NCBI RefSeq assembly: GCF_002288265.1
Contig: NZ_CP016778.1
Span: 1,178,001-1,242,000, forward strand
Length of the DNA stretch: 64,000 bases
Direction: 5' to 3'
DNA from: Candidatus Planktophila versatilis
GTDB lineage: Bacteria; Actinomycetota; Actinomycetes; Nanopelagicales; Nanopelagicaceae
The notes under the pieces are model-generated. The model was not told the DNA's origin and made no database searches. It saw nothing but the letters and a program-made list of their open reading frames with translations. The position numbers and the translations under genes were made by a program. This document shows positions 1,861-41,291 of this stretch, in pieces. The first letter of the stretch is position 1. Each line of letters begins with the position of its first letter.

Positions 1861-3048
1861 ATGAATGAAGTAGTACGCGAGCTTCCTCGCGTCCCCCTGC
1901 GTGATCGCCTCACACCCGATGAGTGGCGCCGGATGGGGCTCATGTTCGGCTTCATCGCATTCCTGCACGTTGCAGGCGCCTTTCTCATGTGGAAGGCCAC
2001 AACGGGCAACTATAAGTTAGCCGATGGCACCTTATTCGGTTGGGGAACTGCCGTTCTCGCCTACACCCTTGGCATGCGACATGCATTCGATGCCGATCAC
2101 ATCAGCGCAATCGATAACACAACACGAAAGTTAATGTCAGAAGGACAACGGCCATTAGCAACTGGATTCTTCTTCTCCCTCGGACATTCCTCGGTAGTTG
2201 CAGCACTTGCAATATTACTCACCTTCGGAATTAAGGCCGTTGGTAGCCAATTGAAAGATGAAGACTCTGCCCTTAACCACTACACCGGCATTATTGGCCT
2301 TACCGTCTCAGGCACATTCTTAATGCTCATTGCAATCTTGAATTTAATTGTCCTGGTCTCGATTGTTGGCGTCTTTTTCAAGATGCGCAAAGGGTTATAT
2401 AACGAAGAAGAGCTTGAAAAGCACCTGAACTCTCGTGGTCTGCTCATGCGCTTCTTCGGTCCGATTGCACGCCGCATTGATAAGAGCTGGAAGATGTATC
2501 CACTTGGAATTCTCTTCGGACTTGGTTTTGATACCGCAACTGAAATTGGTCTACTAGTCCTTGCAGGTTCTTCTGTGATTGCCGGTCTGCCATGGTGGGC
2601 AGTTATCTCACTTCCACTCTTCTTTGCCGGTGGCATGAGTTTGCTCGACACTATCGATGGCTCATTCATGAATTTTGCTTACGGTTGGGCTTTCTCGAAA
2701 CCAGTACGTAAGGTGTATTACAACATCATTATTACTGGGCTCTCAGTAGCAGTTGCACTCTTCGTAGGTGGCCTTGAAATCTGCCAAGTAATTGCCGAGC
2801 AGTTAAACCTCACAGGTGGATTCTGGGAATATGCACTTGCCTTTAACTTAAATTCAGCCGGTTATTACATCGTCGCTGCCTTTGTAGTTGTGTGGGGTGT
2901 GGCCCTTCTTCTGTGGCGTTTTGGCAAGATTGAAGAGCGTTGGCATGACTCAGCACATGCTGCCCAAATGGCTCGTGGAGAAAATACTGATCACGCTGCA
3001 GCGGGAATTGATCTCGGTCCAATTAATGATGGATGGAAGATCGACTAA
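1861..3048 (+). CDS. HoxN/NixA-family nickel/cobalt permease
   Basis: This 395-residue multi-pass protein belongs to the NiCoT family of secondary transporters for Ni2+ or Co2+. The diagnostic segment RHAFDADHISAIDN is at residues 73-86 in the second membrane helix; its His and Asp residues form the metal filter. A second signature, FSLGHSSVV, is at 105-113, and LGFDTATEIGLL occurs in the second half. About eight hydrophobic helices are seen. The start at 1861 follows GGAGAGG and fits the family N-terminus better than the upstream ATG at 1834. Ni versus Co preference cannot be read from sequence; cobalt for B12 or nickel for an enzyme elsewhere are both possible. Confidence 0.92.
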   Translation: MNEVVRELPRVPLRDRLTPDEWRRMGLMFGFIAFLHVAGAFLMWKATTGNYKLADGTLFGWGTAVLAYTLGMRHAFDADHISAIDNTTRKLMSEGQRPLATGFFFSLGHSSVVAALAILLTFGIKAVGSQLKDEDSALNHYTGIIGLTVSGTFLMLIAILNLIVLVSIVGVFFKMRKGLYNEEELEKHLNSRGLLMRFFGPIARRIDKSWKMYPLGILFGLGFDTATEIGLLVLAGSSVIAGLPWWAVISLPLFFAGGMSLLDTIDGSFMNFAYGWAFSKPVRKVYYNIIITGLSVAVALFVGGLEICQVIAEQLNLTGGFWEYALAFNLNSAGYYIVAAFVVVWGVALLLWRFGKIEERWHDSAHAAQMARGENTDHAAAGIDLGPINDGWKID

Positions 3049-3947
3049 CTCTGCTTTAAGGTGATTCTCTCCTGCGCAATTGCTGCACCAAATAGAACAA
3101 TGAGCGCGCCCACTGGCTCATTCCAGGTAATTGATTCGTTGAGAAAGATGATTCCAACGATAATTGCAACTAGTGGAGTCAGGTAAGTAACTGAGCTTGC
3201 GATCGCGCTACCAGCTAGCTGCATAACTTTGTAGTTCCATAAGTAGGCAAAGCCACTGCCAAAGACACCCAGACCAATCATTGCCAGTACTGGTCCAATT
3301 CGATATTCGTACTTAGAAATTCCATCTAAAAGAAAGAAAGGTAAGAGTGTGAAGGCAGCCAACGTGAGCTGCATAGCCATGAGGGACTCAGTTTGAATCT
3401 TAAGTGGAATCACATATTTGCGGGTGTAAGGAAATGAAATTCCATAGCAACTGACGGCAAGGAGTAAAGCAAGTATTGCCCAGAGTGGATTATCGCCGAG
3501 GCCTCTCCATGCACCCAGAACGGTAAGGACTCCAAGAAAGCCAAGTAATAGACCCAGCAGTTGTGATGGCTTCGGTTTTTCCTCTCGGTTGATAACCAAA
3601 ATTGCAATGATTGTCATCAATGGTGTCACGGCATTGATAATGCCTGCCAAAATTGAGGTCACTGCAGTTTCAGCAAGTGCAAAGAAGATTCCAGGAATGA
3701 CGTTAATAAAGATTGCAACAACCCACAGATGAAATCGCACCATGCGATCTTTAGGTAGGGATATTCCTCTTAATTTTGCGTAGATGAGAAGTGCAAGTGC
3801 GCCTAGTGCGCAGCGCACGAAGGCGACGCCAAAGGGTGTCAGGAATTCAAGACCTAACTTGATGAAGATAAAGGAACAGCCCCAGACAATTCCTAGTGTG
3901 ATGTATGCAGGGATCCAAGATCTCTGACGCTGCACGGGGGTGTTCAT
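3045..3947 (-). CDS. EamA-family (DMT superfamily) permease
   Basis: The 300-residue protein has about ten hydrophobic helices arranged as two five-helix EamA halves, the usual length for this family of metabolite or amino-acid exporters. A Pro-rich segment (NAVTPLMTIIAILVI) ends the first half and an equivalent one (YLTPLVAIIVGIIFL) is in the second. The substrate is not predictable. The 3' end overlaps the end of the convergent nickel permease gene by four bases. A leaderless-type -10 sits six bases before the ATG. Confidence 0.85.
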   Translation of the reverse strand: MNTPVQRQRSWIPAYITLGIVWGCSFIFIKLGLEFLTPFGVAFVRCALGALALLIYAKLRGISLPKDRMVRFHLWVVAIFINVIPGIFFALAETAVTSILAGIINAVTPLMTIIAILVINREEKPKPSQLLGLLLGFLGVLTVLGAWRGLGDNPLWAILALLLAVSCYGISFPYTRKYVIPLKIQTESLMAMQLTLAAFTLLPFFLLDGISKYEYRIGPVLAMIGLGVFGSGFAYLWNYKVMQLAGSAIASSVTYLTPLVAIIVGIIFLNESITWNEPVGALIVLFGAAIAQERITLKQS

Positions 3948-3953
3948 GGTGTG

Positions 3954-3959
3954 ACTTTA
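3954..3959 (-). promoter_or_regulatory. -10 element, leaderless promoter of the EamA permease gene
   Basis: On the minus strand TAAAGT is followed by six bases (CACACC) and the ATG at 3947. No Shine-Dalgarno sequence is present. Confidence 0.5.
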
Positions 3960-3966
3960 CTTAAGG

Positions 3967-4011
3967 GTGGGCCCAGACAGGCTCGAACTGTCGACCCACG
4001 GATTAAAAGTC
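3967..4011 (-). repeat. 3' fragment of tRNA-Lys (45 bp, att-like direct repeat)
   Basis: These 45 bases match the 3' part of both complete tRNA-Lys genes (5277-5321 and 6504-6548) without a mismatch. They cover the acceptor 3' strand, T arm, variable loop and the anticodon arm up to the 5' side of the anticodon loop, and then diverge abruptly. The fragment is in the same orientation as the intact genes and cannot make a tRNA. Such a partial duplication is the usual scar left when an element integrates into a tRNA gene with a crossover in the anticodon loop. Confidence 0.85.
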
Positions 4012-4075
4012 TGACCTAGTAAGTTCCTAAGCGTGTCTTTAAGTGCCGTACGTCCCACCGTTAATTGTGACTCGC

Positions 4076-4092
4076 ACCTGGAAGTACCAGGT
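4076..4092. other. Small perfect hairpin just beyond the metalloprotease gene
   Basis: ACCTGG-AAGTA-CCAGGT forms a six-base-pair stem with a five-base loop directly after the stop of the minus-strand gene ending at 4100. There is no T-run, so it is a weak terminator candidate at best. Confidence 0.3.
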
Positions 4093-4099
4093 AGAACCA

Positions 4100-5221
4100 C
4101 TAGCTCTTTGTCAGAGTTACGACTGCACTTGTTGCACCCGTGCTTTTGACAGTAAGTACATATGGTGCGCCCGGTAATTGAAACGTCTCGCCTTCGAGAA
4201 AACCTGTAAGGATCCATTTCTCAGGAAGGACTTCGGGATCCAGATTTACAACACTAGTTGGCAGATCAGAATCGCGTCTTTTTATCAGCATGGGACCAAC
4301 GGCACTCCCTTTGGGTTTTGTCCAAGCAGGCCCAATCATTCTTACTTGAATCTGCGGTTTATCGAGAAAGGTAGGGAAGGCAATGCAACGCTCTTCACCT
4401 GGCACGTAGTACTCGAAGAAATACCAGTTACCTATGTACTTGAATTGATAGACAATCTTGTCTGTAGTAAGTCTTGATTCATCAACAGTTATATCAACGC
4501 CAATTGTCACATTTTTTGCCTTCGGGGTGGAAAAAGTAATTGCGCGTTGCGTAGCGCTTAATGTGGCATCAAGACACCAATCATCACTGCCCATCAGATC
4601 TCTAAAATCTCCATACTCTTCAACCGAACAATTCTTTGCATTAAATTTTGTGTAATCAGACTTCTCACAGTAAAGGGTAGAAGAATGGTAAAAATTAAAG
4701 TTATGGCCAAGCTCGTGAATCAATGTTGTTGAACCAAAAGATTTAAGGTTTAACGCATTTCCGCCTTGTTCGCCAAGTCCTGCATATCCACACGAGTCGT
4801 TTACATTTACAGTAATCAAGTGGGTTCCTGTTGGAATTGACTTCAGCCCTGCGATTTTCATTGCTGTCTTTATATCCGCAGAGCTGTTGCAATGCTTCAC
4901 AGCTGTTCCGGATTTGCCGATAATGAATTTGGTGGACCCAAACTTCATTTTGTCGCGGGAGGCTTGCTTCCAAAAGGTAATCGCATCAGTAACAGTGCTC
5001 TTGGCGTAACTCAGCATCTCTCCTTCGCTCTCTGCCGTCGCTGATTCTGATGAATTCTCGGTCCAGAAATTTGGCTGGTCTTTTGGAGTTAATCCAACGT
5101 AAACAATCTTCTGTGTCGTAGTCCATTTGTTTTGCTGTGTGGCTGCTGGTGCAGAAGGCATAAAAGAAACTGTGAGGGCGACCGTAGTGATTCCAACCAG
5201 GATTCTTTTCATACGGTGCAT
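4100..5221 (-). CDS. Secreted metzincin-type zinc metalloprotease
   Basis: The 373-residue protein starts with a signal peptide (about residues 1-27: basic MHRMKR, a hydrophobic core, then APA-ATQ). The zinc-protease signature HELGHNFNFYH is at 169-179, giving the HExxHxxxxxH pattern of metzincins with Glu170 as the catalytic base. It is followed by a likely Met-turn, DLMG, at 208-211. Paired cysteines suggest an extracellular protein. It most resembles gametolysin/M11-like secreted peptidases, but the family assignment is from the motif only. The ATG at 5221 is preferred over the one at 5212 because a TAAAGT -10 lies six bases before it. The gene is the only one between the tRNA-Lys 3' fragment and a complete tRNA-Lys, which suggests acquired cargo. 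Confidence 0.82.
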   Translation of the reverse strand: MHRMKRILVGITTVALTVSFMPSAPAATQQNKWTTTQKIVYVGLTPKDQPNFWTENSSESATAESEGEMLSYAKSTVTDAITFWKQASRDKMKFGSTKFIIGKSGTAVKHCNSSADIKTAMKIAGLKSIPTGTHLITVNVNDSCGYAGLGEQGGNALNLKSFGSTTLIHELGHNFNFYHSSTLYCEKSDYTKFNAKNCSVEEYGDFRDLMGSDDWCLDATLSATQRAITFSTPKAKNVTIGVDITVDESRLTTDKIVYQFKYIGNWYFFEYYVPGEERCIAFPTFLDKPQIQVRMIGPAWTKPKGSAVGPMLIKRRDSDLPTSVVNLDPEVLPEKWILTGFLEGETFQLPGAPYVLTVKSTGATSAVVTLTKS

Positions 5222-5227
5222 TTGCGT

Positions 5228-5233
5228 ACTTTA
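5228..5233 (-). promoter_or_regulatory. -10 element, leaderless promoter of the metalloprotease gene
   Basis: TAAAGT on the minus strand is followed by ACGCAA and the ATG at 5221. The cargo gene carries its own promoter between itself and the tRNA. Confidence 0.5.
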
Positions 5234-5277
5234 CTCTGCCTCTATTTCAATCCAATAGGGCCAATCGAATACCAAAG

Positions 5278-5350
5278 TGGGCCCAGACAGGCTCGAACTG
5301 TCGACCCACGGATTAAAAGTCCGTTGCTCTACCGGCTGAGCTATAGGCCC
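5278..5350 (-). tRNA. tRNA-Lys (anticodon TTT), copy 1
   Basis: The 73-base minus-strand cloverleaf pairs GGGCCTA with TGGGCCC in the acceptor stem, with one G-U pair. The anticodon stem ACGGA/TCCGT encloses the loop CTTTTAA with anticodon TTT, and the T arm is GACAG-TTCGAGC-CTGTC. No CCA is encoded. It is identical to copy 2 over the whole gene; the exact repeat is 80 bp (5274-5353 and 6501-6580). Confidence 0.95.
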
Positions 5351-5357
5351 CACTGCC

Positions 5358-5448
5358 TAATTGGCTCATCTGTTCGACTATTTAAGTATTCGAACTCCGT
5401 TTGGTTCGATCAATTTATGTCTTGTTTAGGGTAGCCAATTAACAGATG
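5358..5448. repeat. Interleaved inverted repeats beside tRNA-Lys copy 1
   Basis: TAATTGGC (5358-5365) is inverted at GCCAATTA (5434-5441), and the adjacent CATCTGTT (5367-5374) is inverted at AACAGATG (5441-5448). The two pairs are interleaved rather than nested, so they do not make one simple hairpin. They lie in the gene-free 205 bp (5351-5555) between tRNA-Lys copy 1 and the next cargo gene. Apart from these repeats and the promoter at 5544, I see nothing else there. Confidence 0.45.
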
Positions 5449-5543
5449 TCCAGTAGGTAATGCGGATGCCAAGGTGGTTATTTGTAAAATTAAGCCAATT
5501 TAAACAAAAAAGTAATCCTCTACTGTCTCAAGAGTTAATTCCA

Positions 5544-5549
5544 TATAAT
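5544..5549 (+). promoter_or_regulatory. Consensus -10 element (TATAAT) of a leaderless promoter
   Basis: A perfect TATAAT is followed by six bases (GTCTGA) and the ATG at 5556. It is the best -10 match in the window and drives a secreted-protein cargo gene. Confidence 0.6.
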
Positions 5550-5555
5550 GTCTGA

Positions 5556-6467
5556 ATGAAACGACTGAGTTGTATTCTTGCGGCTTTTCTCATTCTGGGT
5601 GTTCCTCCAGCCTACGCAGCAACCATCACGCCTGGAACCTCTTGTAAGTCAGCAGGTCAAAAAGCAACATATAAAGGCAAGTCTTACACATGTATTAAGC
5701 TCGGCAAGAAACTTTATTGGGATAACGGGGTGCCAACTAAAAAACCCAATACTTCTCCATTAGACATGCCTGCCTCATGTAATGTCGTAGTGCCGACTTG
5801 GAGCATGGAAATTTCTGATCTTTGGCTTGATTACAGGGATGTATGGTTTTCTGCGATGCTAGTTAATGCGAGCATTAAATACATGGCTACTGACATAAAC
5901 GTCTATGTAGAATATTACGACAATTTTGGAATCTTCAAGAAGGACAAGATATCTGTCCCTAAATTATTCCCAGGGCAAACTTTAGAGTTTGGAGGCGGGG
6001 CAGACTTTTTTGAAGGAAAGTTTCCAACTGATGTGAGACTAAGGACTACCTGCAAAAGTACAGTTTGGAAACAATATAAAGTTATAAAAGGTAAGTCTCC
6101 ACTAAGCCTCGAACAATTCAGTGAAGAATTTTTGGACTATAATTATGGGGGTAAGCGACGAGATATTCTTCAGATTCAGGCAACCCTTAATTCAAGAATT
6201 ATCATAGATAACATTTTTGACCAGGCCTTAACGTGCGATGATCGTGGCTGTAATTTCTTTCTCTACGGCACTTTTAAGGACACGTTTGGAAATACATTTG
6301 GTGGTATTGCAACAGAATACCTATCTGGATTTTTTGAAAATGAGATAGAACCTGGAGAGACTGGCTATATCAATTTACAGGTAGGTGCCTTGTTGACTGA
6401 TATACCGCTCTATCCATGGCTATCTCGAGTAACTCGATTTGAATACACGCTTATTCCAAAGTTTTAG
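5556..6467 (+). CDS. Secreted protein with N-terminal Cys-pair module, function unknown
   Basis: The 303-residue protein has a signal peptide (about residues 1-22, ending YAA). A roughly 40-residue module follows, with PGTSCK, GQ, YTCIK, GKKLYW and NGV in order and two cysteines. The same module opens the secreted protein at 40339-41196. The rest is beta-rich with further cysteines and matches no family I recognise. The gene is visibly more A+T-rich than the housekeeping genes around it. It is the only gene between two identical tRNA-Lys genes, is convergent with copy 2, and has its own strong promoter. A surface or extracellular role is inferred from the signal peptide alone. Confidence 0.75.
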   Translation: MKRLSCILAAFLILGVPPAYAATITPGTSCKSAGQKATYKGKSYTCIKLGKKLYWDNGVPTKKPNTSPLDMPASCNVVVPTWSMEISDLWLDYRDVWFSAMLVNASIKYMATDINVYVEYYDNFGIFKKDKISVPKLFPGQTLEFGGGADFFEGKFPTDVRLRTTCKSTVWKQYKVIKGKSPLSLEQFSEEFLDYNYGGKRRDILQIQATLNSRIIIDNIFDQALTCDDRGCNFFLYGTFKDTFGNTFGGIATEYLSGFFENEIEPGETGYINLQVGALLTDIPLYPWLSRVTRFEYTLIPKF

Positions 6468-6504
6468 ACTTCATAGCAGATACGAGTAGGAATTGGACTG
6501 AAAG

Positions 6505-6577
6505 TGGGCCCAGACAGGCTCGAACTGTCGACCCACGGATTAAAAGTCCGTTGCTCTACCGGCTGAGCTATAGGCCC
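6505..6577 (-). tRNA. tRNA-Lys (anticodon TTT), copy 2
   Basis: This gene is identical to the tRNA-Lys at 5278-5350 in every base, including seven acceptor pairs, the CTTTTAA anticodon loop and no encoded CCA. The flanks diverge within a few bases. Two identical copies 1.2 kb apart in a compact genome are unusual and mark a duplicated integration-type locus. Confidence 0.95.
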
Positions 6578-6625
6578 CACATACAACTAGCGCCAACTGC
6601 GCGCTAGAAGCTGAACTTTATCACC

Positions 6626-7591
6626 TTAGCGACCGCGGCTGGCACGCAGTAATCGGTCGCGGATGGCTACTGAGATGTCATCTCCTGCTGGCTGGTGCAC
6701 AACAACACGGGTTAATGAGCGCTCATCTGCACTTCGTAGCGCGGCGTAAAGAACGCGCGCAAACTCTTCATTGTTTGCAGGTGATGCCAAGCGAACAACT
6801 CCTTGCGGTGTGTGAACACTTGCAAGTGCAATAAATCCATCACCTGGTTGTGGCTGGCAATCAAGTGCCACTGTGGCTTCCGGTGAGTAATGATTTTCAA
6901 GTGATCCACTTACTCGAATATCTGTCTCGGATTCTTCAAGGTGTAATCCAGTTACCTGCTCAATCATCTCTGCCGTGATTGCACCAGGTCTTAAAATTCT
7001 TGGAGCAATACCCGTGCAATCAATGATTGTTGATTCAACGCCGACCTGCGATGGGCCGCCATCAAGAATGAGATCACCGTCAACTAGATAGGCTGCAAGT
7101 TCGGCGTTGACAGCTGCTGCAGATGTTGGTGAGACATGTCCAAAGCGATTAGCGCTAGGTGCGGCAATACCTTTACCGCCAAGCTTCTTAAATTCTGCAA
7201 GCAGCGCAAGTGCCACAACATGGTCTGGGACTCGTAGCCCAACGCTCTCTTGTCCCCCAGTAATAAAATCTTGCACGAGATCAGTTCTCTTAAAAATCAG
7301 CGTCATGGGTCCTGGCCAATATTTACGTCCTAATGAAATTGCATATTCTGGGATTTCATCGGCCCAATCAGAGATATCTGCCATTTCACTCACATGCACA
7401 ATCAGCGGGTGATCAGCCGGACGTCCCTTTGCTTCATAAATTCTGGCAACTGCAGCAGCATTTGTGGCATCGGCGCCCAGCCCATAGACAGTCTCAGTCG
7501 GTAGCGCGACCAGTGAACCCGCTTTAAGTTGCTGGGCAGCGCGCGTAATTACATCTGCTGTGCACTCAGATACGAATTGCCCGCTGCTCAT
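6626..7591 (-). CDS. L-threonylcarbamoyladenylate synthase, long Sua5 form
   Basis: The 321-residue protein makes threonylcarbamoyl-AMP from threonine, bicarbonate and ATP, the first step of t6A formation at position 37 of ANN-decoding tRNAs. The YrdC/Sua5 core is in the first two thirds, with LPTETVYGLG, KGRPADHPL, WPGPMTL, PSAN and the ESTIIDC/LRPG segment. The remaining third is the C-terminal Sua5 domain. The start at 7591 (MSSGQF) is chosen over the upstream ATG at 7630 because a GATAAT -10 lies seven bases before it and the longer form would overlap the divergent gene. It is divergent from the glycosyltransferase gene with a 39-bp gap. Confidence 0.9.
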   Translation of the reverse strand: MSSGQFVSECTADVITRAAQQLKAGSLVALPTETVYGLGADATNAAAVARIYEAKGRPADHPLIVHVSEMADISDWADEIPEYAISLGRKYWPGPMTLIFKRTDLVQDFITGGQESVGLRVPDHVVALALLAEFKKLGGKGIAAPSANRFGHVSPTSAAAVNAELAAYLVDGDLILDGGPSQVGVESTIIDCTGIAPRILRPGAITAEMIEQVTGLHLEESETDIRVSGSLENHYSPEATVALDCQPQPGDGFIALASVHTPQGVVRLASPANNEEFARVLYAALRSADERSLTRVVVHQPAGDDISVAIRDRLLRASRGR

Positions 7592-7598
7592 GAGTTCA

Positions 7599-7604
7599 AT
7601 TATC
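7599..7604 (-). promoter_or_regulatory. -10 element, leaderless promoter of the Sua5 gene
   Basis: GATAAT on the minus strand is followed by seven bases and the ATG at 7591. The divergent gene at 7631 instead has a Shine-Dalgarno sequence (GAGAAG). Confidence 0.45.
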
Positions 7605-7630
7605 CAGCCTTTTTGCGAGAAGATAACCAC

Positions 7631-40227: not shown

Positions 40228-40315
40228 GGAGGATTCGCATAGCGGCCGAGTGCGCACGCTTGGAAAGCGTGTATAGGGCAACCTATCGAGGGTTCAAATC
40301 CCTCATCCTCCGCCA
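40228..40315 (+). tRNA. tRNA-Ser (anticodon GGA), CCA encoded
   Basis: The long-variable-arm cloverleaf has acceptor GGAGGAT/ATCCTCC, anticodon stem CACGC/GCGTG with loop TTGGAAA (GGA), a variable arm TATAGGGCAACCTAT, T arm GAGGG-TTCAAAT-CCCTC, discriminator G and an encoded CCA. Its 3' end is partly duplicated downstream at 41271-41291 and more weakly at 41530-41543. Confidence 0.95.
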
Positions 40316-40338: not shown

Positions 40339-41196
40339 TTATTTGCAGTAGTCGCTCGTCTGTCCATTTTTGCCATCACGAGAAGGAAGCAATTTCACCG
40401 CCAAGCTGTCAGCTTGAGGCAGTGAATTAAGCCAACAAATACCGTAAGAATCTGCTGGATACTGAGAATGAGCGCTAGCCCAAGCAGGATCTTTTGATGC
40501 TTCATTTTTCTGACGCATATCATAAACGCCGAAATCTACAGAGACATTATTGAGGAAACCAACTTCCGTGGCAATCACTTCACCGACCGTTACAGCGACA
40601 GGCGGGCTTACTGGGTCAGTGCGAGTGTCTTCCTTTATCGGAAACGCATTAACTACCGCTTCAAATTTTGGGGTCAATTTTCTTAAATGATCGAATCGGA
40701 AGGAAACTCCACAATTTCCATCAAACTCAAAGAGATACTGAATCTCTCCCATTTCTCTATAACGAACAACCCGTGTGATCTTGCCATTTAGTGGGATCTT
40801 CACTGTTACCAAATTGTCGGTCGCATTATCAAAACCAAAACCACCATGAGCTTTGTAATTTCCGCCTCGTTCCTGTCCCGGATAAAGAATCGATGTGACC
40901 TTTGAAAGGTCAACCGGTGTTTGAAGAAGCGGAGTTGGACATGATGACGATGGAGTGGCACCAGCATTTGGAGATGAGGATGCCGGTGAAGTAGGAGAAC
41001 TGCCCTTGGTGCCAACTCCTTTATTCCAAACAAGTTTCTTACCACTCTTGATGCATGTGTACTTGATCTCTGCGGATGTACTGATCTGGCCAAGTTTTTT
41101 ACAAGTAGTGCCAGGTTTTACCGCCGCTGTTGCAGTTGAAAGGTTTAACGAAAGAACTAAGCAACCAATTACTATGGTTGCAGATACTCGCTTCAT
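40339..41196 (-). CDS. Secreted protein with Cys-pair module and M23-like domain
   Basis: The 285-residue protein has a signal peptide (about 1-25, ending ATAA). A module PGTTCK-GQ-YTCIK-GKKLVW-KGV follows, shared with the protein at 5556-6467, and then a Ser/Pro-rich linker (about 65-85). The rest has HGGFGFD, a strand-turn VKIPLNGKITRVV and SFRFDHL, which loosely follow the His-Asp and His elements of M23/LytM-like hairpin domains. The full HxxxD/HxH zinc site is not clear, so it may be non-catalytic. The gene lies alone between tRNA-Ser and a tRNA-Ser 3' remnant, convergent with the tRNA. Confidence 0.68.
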   Translation of the reverse strand: MKRVSATIVIGCLVLSLNLSTATAAVKPGTTCKKLGQISTSAEIKYTCIKSGKKLVWNKGVGTKGSSPTSPASSSPNAGATPSSSCPTPLLQTPVDLSKVTSILYPGQERGGNYKAHGGFGFDNATDNLVTVKIPLNGKITRVVRYREMGEIQYLFEFDGNCGVSFRFDHLRKLTPKFEAVVNAFPIKEDTRTDPVSPPVAVTVGEVIATEVGFLNNVSVDFGVYDMRQKNEASKDPAWASAHSQYPADSYGICWLNSLPQADSLAVKLLPSRDGKNGQTSDYCK

Positions 41197-41270: not shown

Positions 41271-41291
41271 AAATCCCTAATCCTCCGCCAG
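41271..41291 (+). repeat. Remnant of the tRNA-Ser 3' end (20 of 21 bases)
   Basis: These 21 bases match 40296-40316 (T-loop end, T stem, acceptor strand, discriminator, CCA and one more base) with a single C-to-A change. The copy is in direct orientation and separated from tRNA-Ser by one secreted-protein gene, like an attachment-site duplication. Confidence 0.75.

Follow-up and report, generated by a model that had tools for sequence, protein, structure and literature searches.

How do single protein-coding genes come to stand between tandem copies of a tRNA gene, with no integrase beside them? The question is raised by a tRNA-Lys locus of Candidatus Planktophila versatilis, situated in a stretch of 64,000 nucleotides (assembly GCF_002288265.1, contig NZ_CP016778.1, positions 1,178,001 to 1,242,000), hereafter the window, whose coordinates are used below. 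Among lake bacteria, the streamlined freshwater actinobacteria rank with the most abundant, and their genomes have few obvious mobile elements. The locus is composed of two one-gene cassettes; comparison with related genomes indicates that one of them, with a metalloprotease gene, is probably an integrase-less derivative of a family of elements sharing a conserved attachment arm, and that the other probably arrived with an element-borne whole tRNA. The features of the locus are as follows.

6504..6577, minus strand: tRNA-Lys(TTT), native-side copy (tRNA1), called by ARAGORN; its 5' half and upstream flank are native to the chromosome
5277..5350, minus strand: second complete tRNA-Lys(TTT), element-borne (tRNA2), called by ARAGORN
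3967..4011, minus strand: tRNA-Lys 3' half (nt 30-74), i.e. the core of the right attachment site (attR) plus the native 3' end, by exact-repeat match
4012..4103, minus strand: P' attachment arm immediately preceding the tRNA-Lys 3' half, by homology to genome G104 and by the arm model
5556..6467, plus strand: cassette 1 cargo, an open reading frame (ORF) for a 303-aa protein with a signal-peptide-like N-terminus and a short two-Cys module
4100..5221, minus strand: cassette 2 cargo, an ORF for a 373-aa secreted M11 (gametolysin-type) metalloprotease (Pfam PF05548)
4012..6548, no strand: 2,537-bp insert, measured core to core, whose excision reproduces the empty site of genome G134
6626..7630, minus strand: Sua5/YrdC-type gene, native upstream flank, which directly precedes tRNA-Lys in G134, G068, G001, and others
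3045..3947, minus strand: EamA-type transporter gene, native downstream flank, which directly follows tRNA-Lys in G134, G068, G001, G132, and others

Read in the tRNA sense, the order is Sua5, tRNA1, the 303-aa gene (on the opposite strand), tRNA2, the 373-aa protease gene, the arm, the 3' half, and EamA, with the tRNA-Lys copies spaced by ~1.31 and ~1.23 kb. An earlier note on this DNA had described two identical tRNA-Lys(TTT) genes in an 80-bp repeat, and the ARAGORN calls and the exact-repeat match agree on this: tRNA1 and tRNA2 lie inside exact 80-nt repeats at 6501-6580 and 5274-5353. The third copy, reported at 3964, is a 45-nt segment (3967-4011) that matches tRNA nt 30-74 perfectly and begins two nt ahead of the anticodon loop (GA, then the loop CTTTTAA, then TCC). 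Its length and its end at the anticodon loop were thus correctly given, while the label "3'-truncated" is true on the plus strand only; in the tRNA sense the 5' half is missing and the copy is 5'-truncated. Each interval between tRNA-Lys copies contains a single long ORF, of 373 and 303 aa, in line with the one gene per interval that had been proposed.

The empty site is found in G134, a genome of the same species, where Sua5 is followed by one tRNA-Lys, 20 bp, and EamA. When 4012-6548 is removed from the window, 1765 of 1829 positions are identical to G134, with zero gaps. The 70 nt upstream of tRNA1 match the corresponding flank of the lone tRNA-Lys of G134 at every position (70/70), and the sequence beyond the 3' half is that found downstream of the intact tRNA there. 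Since excision yields the G134 arrangement exactly and the protease gene is absent from G134, the insertion was precise and is not species-wide. The tRNA-Lys 3' half was matched in 80 genomes of the genus, four of which (G000, G095, G104, and G130) have at least two copies on one contig, and different genes fill the surroundings of this tRNA in many relatives; these are partly draft genomes, and absences among them are therefore weak. Both the empty site and the alternative cargo that the earlier note had asked to look for are thus present. The 45 exact nt, the empty site in the same species, and the recurrence in relatives argue that the locus is not due to chance. In several relatives (L032, L037, L039, and L049), a cytochrome-oxidase-like operon, judged by protein starts only, separates tRNA-Lys from EamA; neither the window nor G134 has it here.

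The DNA that precedes the 3' half is itself conserved. G104 carries a 2.5-kb insert of four quite different genes that ends in a 42-nt tRNA-Lys 3' half, and the DNA before this half is 88% identical to that of the window, arm and half together (137 nt) matching at 90%. When the family was searched with only the arm as query, it was partly matched in G286, G054, and G074, immediately ahead of 3' halves of Lys-CTT, Tyr, and Asn tRNAs, respectively, and at a G020 locus with a Cys-module gene, the arm precedes a tRNA-Met half. An arm model, based on sequence only and built from seven arms, was then searched in 296 genomes of the family and gave 25 matches in 21 genomes from seven genera. All 18 matches outside the training of the model adjoin a tRNA 3' half whose first position lies within nt 27-32; the offset to the predicted core is 0-2, except for one at 8. 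Of these halves, 16 lack at most a few nt and two are cut short. The model includes ~12 nt of the core, which introduces a small bias toward anticodon loops, while the remaining 30 nt per half are independent; as a background, 400 150-mers were drawn at random from the same tRNA-rich loci, and 47 of them match any tRNA. In total, the arm family targets at least eight different tRNAs, and the model gave no match in 295 actinobacteria outside the family, where stricter filters were used. A coding role for the arm, within a conserved protein, was rejected: ORF 3957-4217 seemed coding in comparison with G104, but the other arms enter different tRNAs and diverge outside short motifs.

Some members of the arm family carry an integrase. 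The G213 element (~4.9 kb) is composed of a complete tRNA-Lys-CTT followed by genes for a 382-aa tyrosine integrase, a 259-aa protein, a 74-aa helix-turn-helix (HTH) protein, a 263-aa protein with weak replication-initiator similarity, and a 343-aa exported-type protein, then the arm and the tRNA 3' half; its counterpart in G111, of ~7.6 kb, has the arm at tRNA-Arg. The integrase-bearing members are thus ~5-8 kb long, with a tyrosine integrase, an HTH/AlpA-like protein, a replication-type gene, cargo, the P' arm, and the 3' half, and related integrases adjoin tRNA-Lys-CTT, -Asn, -Val, -Thr, -Met, and -Arg in other genomes. At tRNA-Lys-TTT itself, G130 (L117, 1564-10709) carries an independent element of 9 kb with an integrase, primase/helicase-like genes, and a different arm. 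In G213, G111, and G130, the P and P' arms of one element share direct repeats spaced by 11 bp, and the repeat differs with the integrase type (CTAACAC, TTTGCTTTC, and CGTGCCA); such paired repeats have the appearance of arm-type integrase sites. The empty site, the alternative cargo, the conserved arm resembling a phage-type attachment site (attP), and the integrase elements with the same arm elsewhere all agree with the tyrosine-recombinase-type insertion at the anticodon loop that had been suggested for the window.

How such elements may shrink to a single gene is illustrated by G110, in which tandem one-gene cassettes stand at tRNA-Arg(ACG) (L236, 801-3774). The first of these, next to a complete tRNA-Arg, measures 655 bp between cores and contains a single 82-aa gene. 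Its left 205 bp take in the tRNA, the P arm, and the integrase gene's 3' end, and match one end of the G111 element at 95.6% identity; its right 182 bp, with the P' arm and the half, match the other end at 96.7%. By this comparison, the 655-bp cassette is clearly an internal deletion of a G111-type element with both arms kept. The next intervals hold single genes for proteins of 351 aa and 282 aa, separated by another tRNA-Arg 3' half. A one-gene cassette with the arm is also present at tRNA-Lys-CTT in G123, and a two-gene cassette at tRNA-Val in G045. Cargo is shared across sites: genes for an 88-aa protein, 86% identical, stand beside arms at tRNA-Arg (G111) and tRNA-Tyr (G054), and other cargo families also recur at different tRNAs. 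In the window, only the P' arm is held in common with the integrase elements; parentage is clear for the G110 cassette, from a G111-type element.

The second complete tRNA-Lys has another origin than its neighbor. The identity between tRNA1 and tRNA2 stops 3 nt beyond the gene on both sides, so that tRNA2 cannot be a simple in-place copy of tRNA1. The 70-nt 5' flank of tRNA2 is identical to the flanks of the element-borne copies of G112 and G095 at 42/70 and 38/70 positions, respectively, as compared with 27/70 for its own neighbor and a shuffle maximum of 31, and the G112 and G095 flanks are identical to each other at 60/70 positions despite their differing neighbors. Some elements therefore bring a complete tRNA-Lys together with its own upstream region, and the earlier proposal that a cassette can carry a whole tRNA is supported by this homology. 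In G095, two complete tRNA-Lys copies enclose a single gene of 1,560 aa. The native-side copy (L032, 1575-1648) is a chimera: two variants meet in its T loop, and its T stem is mismatched. The intact element copy presumably does the work of the tRNA there. A search of IMG/VR for the element-borne tRNA flank was unproductive.

The favored explanation for the window is that of two stacked insertions at tRNA-Lys, which would have occurred via tyrosine-recombinase strand exchange at the anticodon loop. The metalloprotease cassette would resemble a cis-mobilizable element (CIME), its integrase having been either formerly present in cis and then deleted, or provided in trans by a helper that is now absent. 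The Cys-module cassette would have come with an element bearing its own complete tRNA-Lys, whence a middle tRNA that is whole, and both cassettes may have been retained as useful cargo that leaves the tRNA intact. The window genome encodes two tyrosine recombinases, adjoining rpsB and a CTP-synthase-type gene, whose neighborhoods suggest XerC and XerD; no serine recombinase and no tyrosine integrase besides this XerC/D-type pair were found in it, and a search for integrases among named genomes (records of freshwater actinobacteria and distant relatives) was unproductive. The earlier note had described the cassettes as non-autonomous and mobilized in trans: the lack of an integrase holds, in a genome with the XerC/D type only, while mobilization in trans today is not borne out; in G110, a one-gene cassette arose by internal deletion, and the metalloprotease cassette of the window has lost the 11-bp repeats.

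Several observations weigh against this explanation. The metalloprotease cassette has neither the 11-bp arm repeats nor a recognizable P arm; the Cys-module cassette has no recognizable arm at all, its assignment being made from the tRNA flank; and no autonomous element with exactly the arm of the window was found at tRNA-Lys-TTT, where the G130 element has another arm. The P-arm repeats are also missing from the G104, G123, and G045 cassettes. The window arms look degraded, and the cassettes are therefore probably no longer mobile by themselves. Since the protease cassette lacks the repeats and the P arm, and the Cys cassette the arm, we clearly prefer derivatives unable to move alone over an active cassette system.

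Such an active system is nevertheless the strongest competitor. It would consist of integrase-less one-gene circles regularly excised and inserted in trans by co-resident integrases, giving integron-like arrays with tRNA halves as separators. The tandem one-gene cassettes of the window and of G110, the two arms retained by the first G110 cassette, the recurrence of cargo families at different tRNAs, and a shared left boundary of the metalloprotease at the 3' end of the tRNA (in G045 and G081, and beside a decayed tRNA-Lys half in G067) speak in its favor, but a window genome with XerC/D as its only tyrosine recombinases, and four cassettes that have lost the P-arm repeats, make it a minority view, worth perhaps one chance in a few. 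We hold the same reserve toward its broader form, a possible but doubtful integron-like cassette economy in this freshwater family, in which a lineage-restricted family of integrases with a shared arm architecture would have been retargeted to the anticodon loops of at least eight tRNAs and would move and stack, in trans, single-gene cassettes whose products are often exported. Integron gene cassettes are tandem single-gene units split by recombination sites, with an IntI integrase and attC sites. The tandem single-gene units with recombination sites between them are alike here, whereas IntI is absent (the related integrases score far below integron-integrase cut-offs) and the separators are tRNA genes or halves, with no attC site, attC not having been searched as such. 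In either case, the G111-type integrase and the G110-type cassette constitute a matched pair for a direct test of mobilization in trans.

The 373-aa protein carries the motif HELGHNFNFYH and matches the Pfam M11 gametolysin family (PF05548) at 25.8 bits, above the cut-off of 21, in agreement with its earlier labeling as a metzincin protease. Homologues with 65-76% identity are encoded by six of the 295 other family genomes; four adjoin tRNA-Lys, on either side (G048, G039, G045, and G081), and those of G067 and G097 are found elsewhere, a decayed tRNA-Lys 3' half still preceding the G067 gene at its different place. The DNA from the tRNA 3' end to the metalloprotease gene is homologous in G045, G081, and G067, and the left boundary is therefore the tRNA 3' end in three species. 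The 303-aa protein has no match in Pfam, PHROGs, or NCBIfam; its homologues in the genus cover the N-terminal module only, none being full-length, and its single-sequence fold prediction has a mean predicted local distance difference test (pLDDT) score of 41.5. The N-terminal Cys module, which belongs to no Pfam family, occurs in 108 of 135 genus genomes, with up to 13 per genome. PADLOC on ten proteins returned one weak PtuB-like match only (E-value 0.0032, in G104).

In another reading, the cassettes would be remnants of prophages at tRNA-Lys, with exported proteins as lysogenic-conversion genes near the attachment site. A 25.7-kb phage contig (IMGVR_UViG_3300027977_000180) opens with a 42-nt tRNA-Lys 3' half, a Cys-module protein gene, and a secreted subtilisin-like protease gene, and on a second virus contig, a complete tRNA-Lys stands at the left end, and both an integrase and a tRNA-Lys 3' half lie close to the right one. 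The arm of the phage contig differs from that of the window, however; IMG/VR contains no exact pattern match to the window arm and no match to the metalloprotease, PHROGs contains none to either cargo protein, and no phage structural gene was recognized among the searched proteins of the two fully read arm-sharing elements. A prophage origin is accordingly unlikely. The start of the phage contig (L076, 1-2700) also shows a lipoprotein-like gene between the tRNA-Lys 3' half and the genes of the Cys-module exported protein and the secreted subtilisin-like protease.

Homologous recombination between tRNA copies, importing foreign DNA in replacement of an adjacent stretch with no site-specific enzyme, would also explain the complete middle tRNA; the chimeric G095 tRNA1, joined in the T loop, is consistent with it, as is the tRNA-Ser locus described below, where cargo varies by strain with no half seen in G134 and G068. 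It is already disfavored by the arm, which is conserved non-tRNA DNA, and both native flanks are intact around an exact insertion whose 3' half starts at the anticodon, like the 18 of 18 halves at the arms; we consider it quite improbable. A local tandem duplication of the tRNA followed by unrelated insertions, suggested by the identity of the two genes, is refuted in the main and has next to no likelihood, since the flanks are unrelated from 3 nt outside the tRNA on both sides and the 5' flank of tRNA2 is akin to that of element-borne tRNAs of other species, not to that of its neighbor.

Among the known systems, the closest are CIMEs and the additive genomic islands at tRNAs. CIMEs occur beside integrative and conjugative elements and integrative and mobilizable elements, and in Dehalococcoides 15 islands at ssrA lack an integration module (PMC3146451). 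The window cassettes are each bounded on both sides by tRNA-Lys copies acting as attachment (att)-type repeats, and neither encodes an integrase or transfer genes; the att repeats at an RNA gene, the tandem stacking, the lack of an own integrase, and the related integrase elements using the same kind of site are common to both, and mobilization by accretion may be. In contrast, tyrosine integrases act here at anticodon loops of at least eight tRNAs instead of a serine recombinase at one transfer-messenger RNA gene, the unit is often a single gene of 0.7-1.5 kb, and a shared arm traces the integrase-less members across tRNAs. Additive flexible genomic islands at tRNAs have been described in streamlined plankton, namely Actinomarinales (PMC7771536) and Methylophilaceae (PMC10872708), the latter with tRNA-Lys end repeats preceding islands of 330 bp to 42 kb with 1 to 63 genes. 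At the tRNA-Lys of the window, too, cargo varies among relatives with part-tRNA repeats, and small gene cassettes at tRNAs are a common trait; those accounts give the pattern, whereas the arm, the autonomous parents, and a deletion derivative are identified here, in another bacterial order.

The earlier note had likened the locus to tycheposons. As described in PMC10872708 and PMC11389934, these are tRNA-bounded cargo elements of aquatic bacteria, 4-200 kb long and with a recombinase; tRNA bounds, cargo, and a tyrosine recombinase in the autonomous form are shared, but, by these descriptions, membership of the window cassettes (1.2-1.3 kb) finds no support, as they are too small and devoid of a tyrosine recombinase of their own. 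In tRNA-dependent lysogeny, known from phages with a common core of ~10 bp and exemplified by mycobacteriophage Fionnbharth at tRNA-Lys-TTT (PMC10865867), the resemblance is with G095 and its element copy beside a broken native tRNA; only in G095 is the native copy broken, whereas tRNA1 of the window is intact although tRNA2 is element-borne. In the open papers that were searched, we found nothing on such cassettes in this group and no description of this element family among integrase-less tRNA inserts. The arm makes it possible to search for a family of elements whose inserts are very small, and the family shows a route by which integrase elements reduce to one-gene cassettes. Much of the cargo looks exported, which would tie the system to surface and extracellular traits.

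The window contains a second target site, at tRNA-Ser, with the following features.

40228..40315, plus strand: tRNA-Ser(GGA), called by ARAGORN
40339..41196, minus strand: cassette cargo, a 285-aa protein with the same Cys module, 48% identical over 64 aa to the product of 5556-6467
41271..41291, plus strand: cassette end, a 21-nt repeat (20/21) of the 3' end of tRNA-Ser, by sequence match

In G134 and G068, a different two-gene cargo lies between the same tRNA-Ser flanks. The site is likely served by another type of recombinase, because the repeat is the 3' end of the tRNA and not its anticodon half. A further pair of tRNA-like genes, with scores of 28 and 37.7 bits and six differences over 78 nt, the second being called tRNA-Gly ACC, was observed in the same genome at G000:C1 271616-276374 (L167), where it bounds a 4.7-kb block of small exported-type genes.

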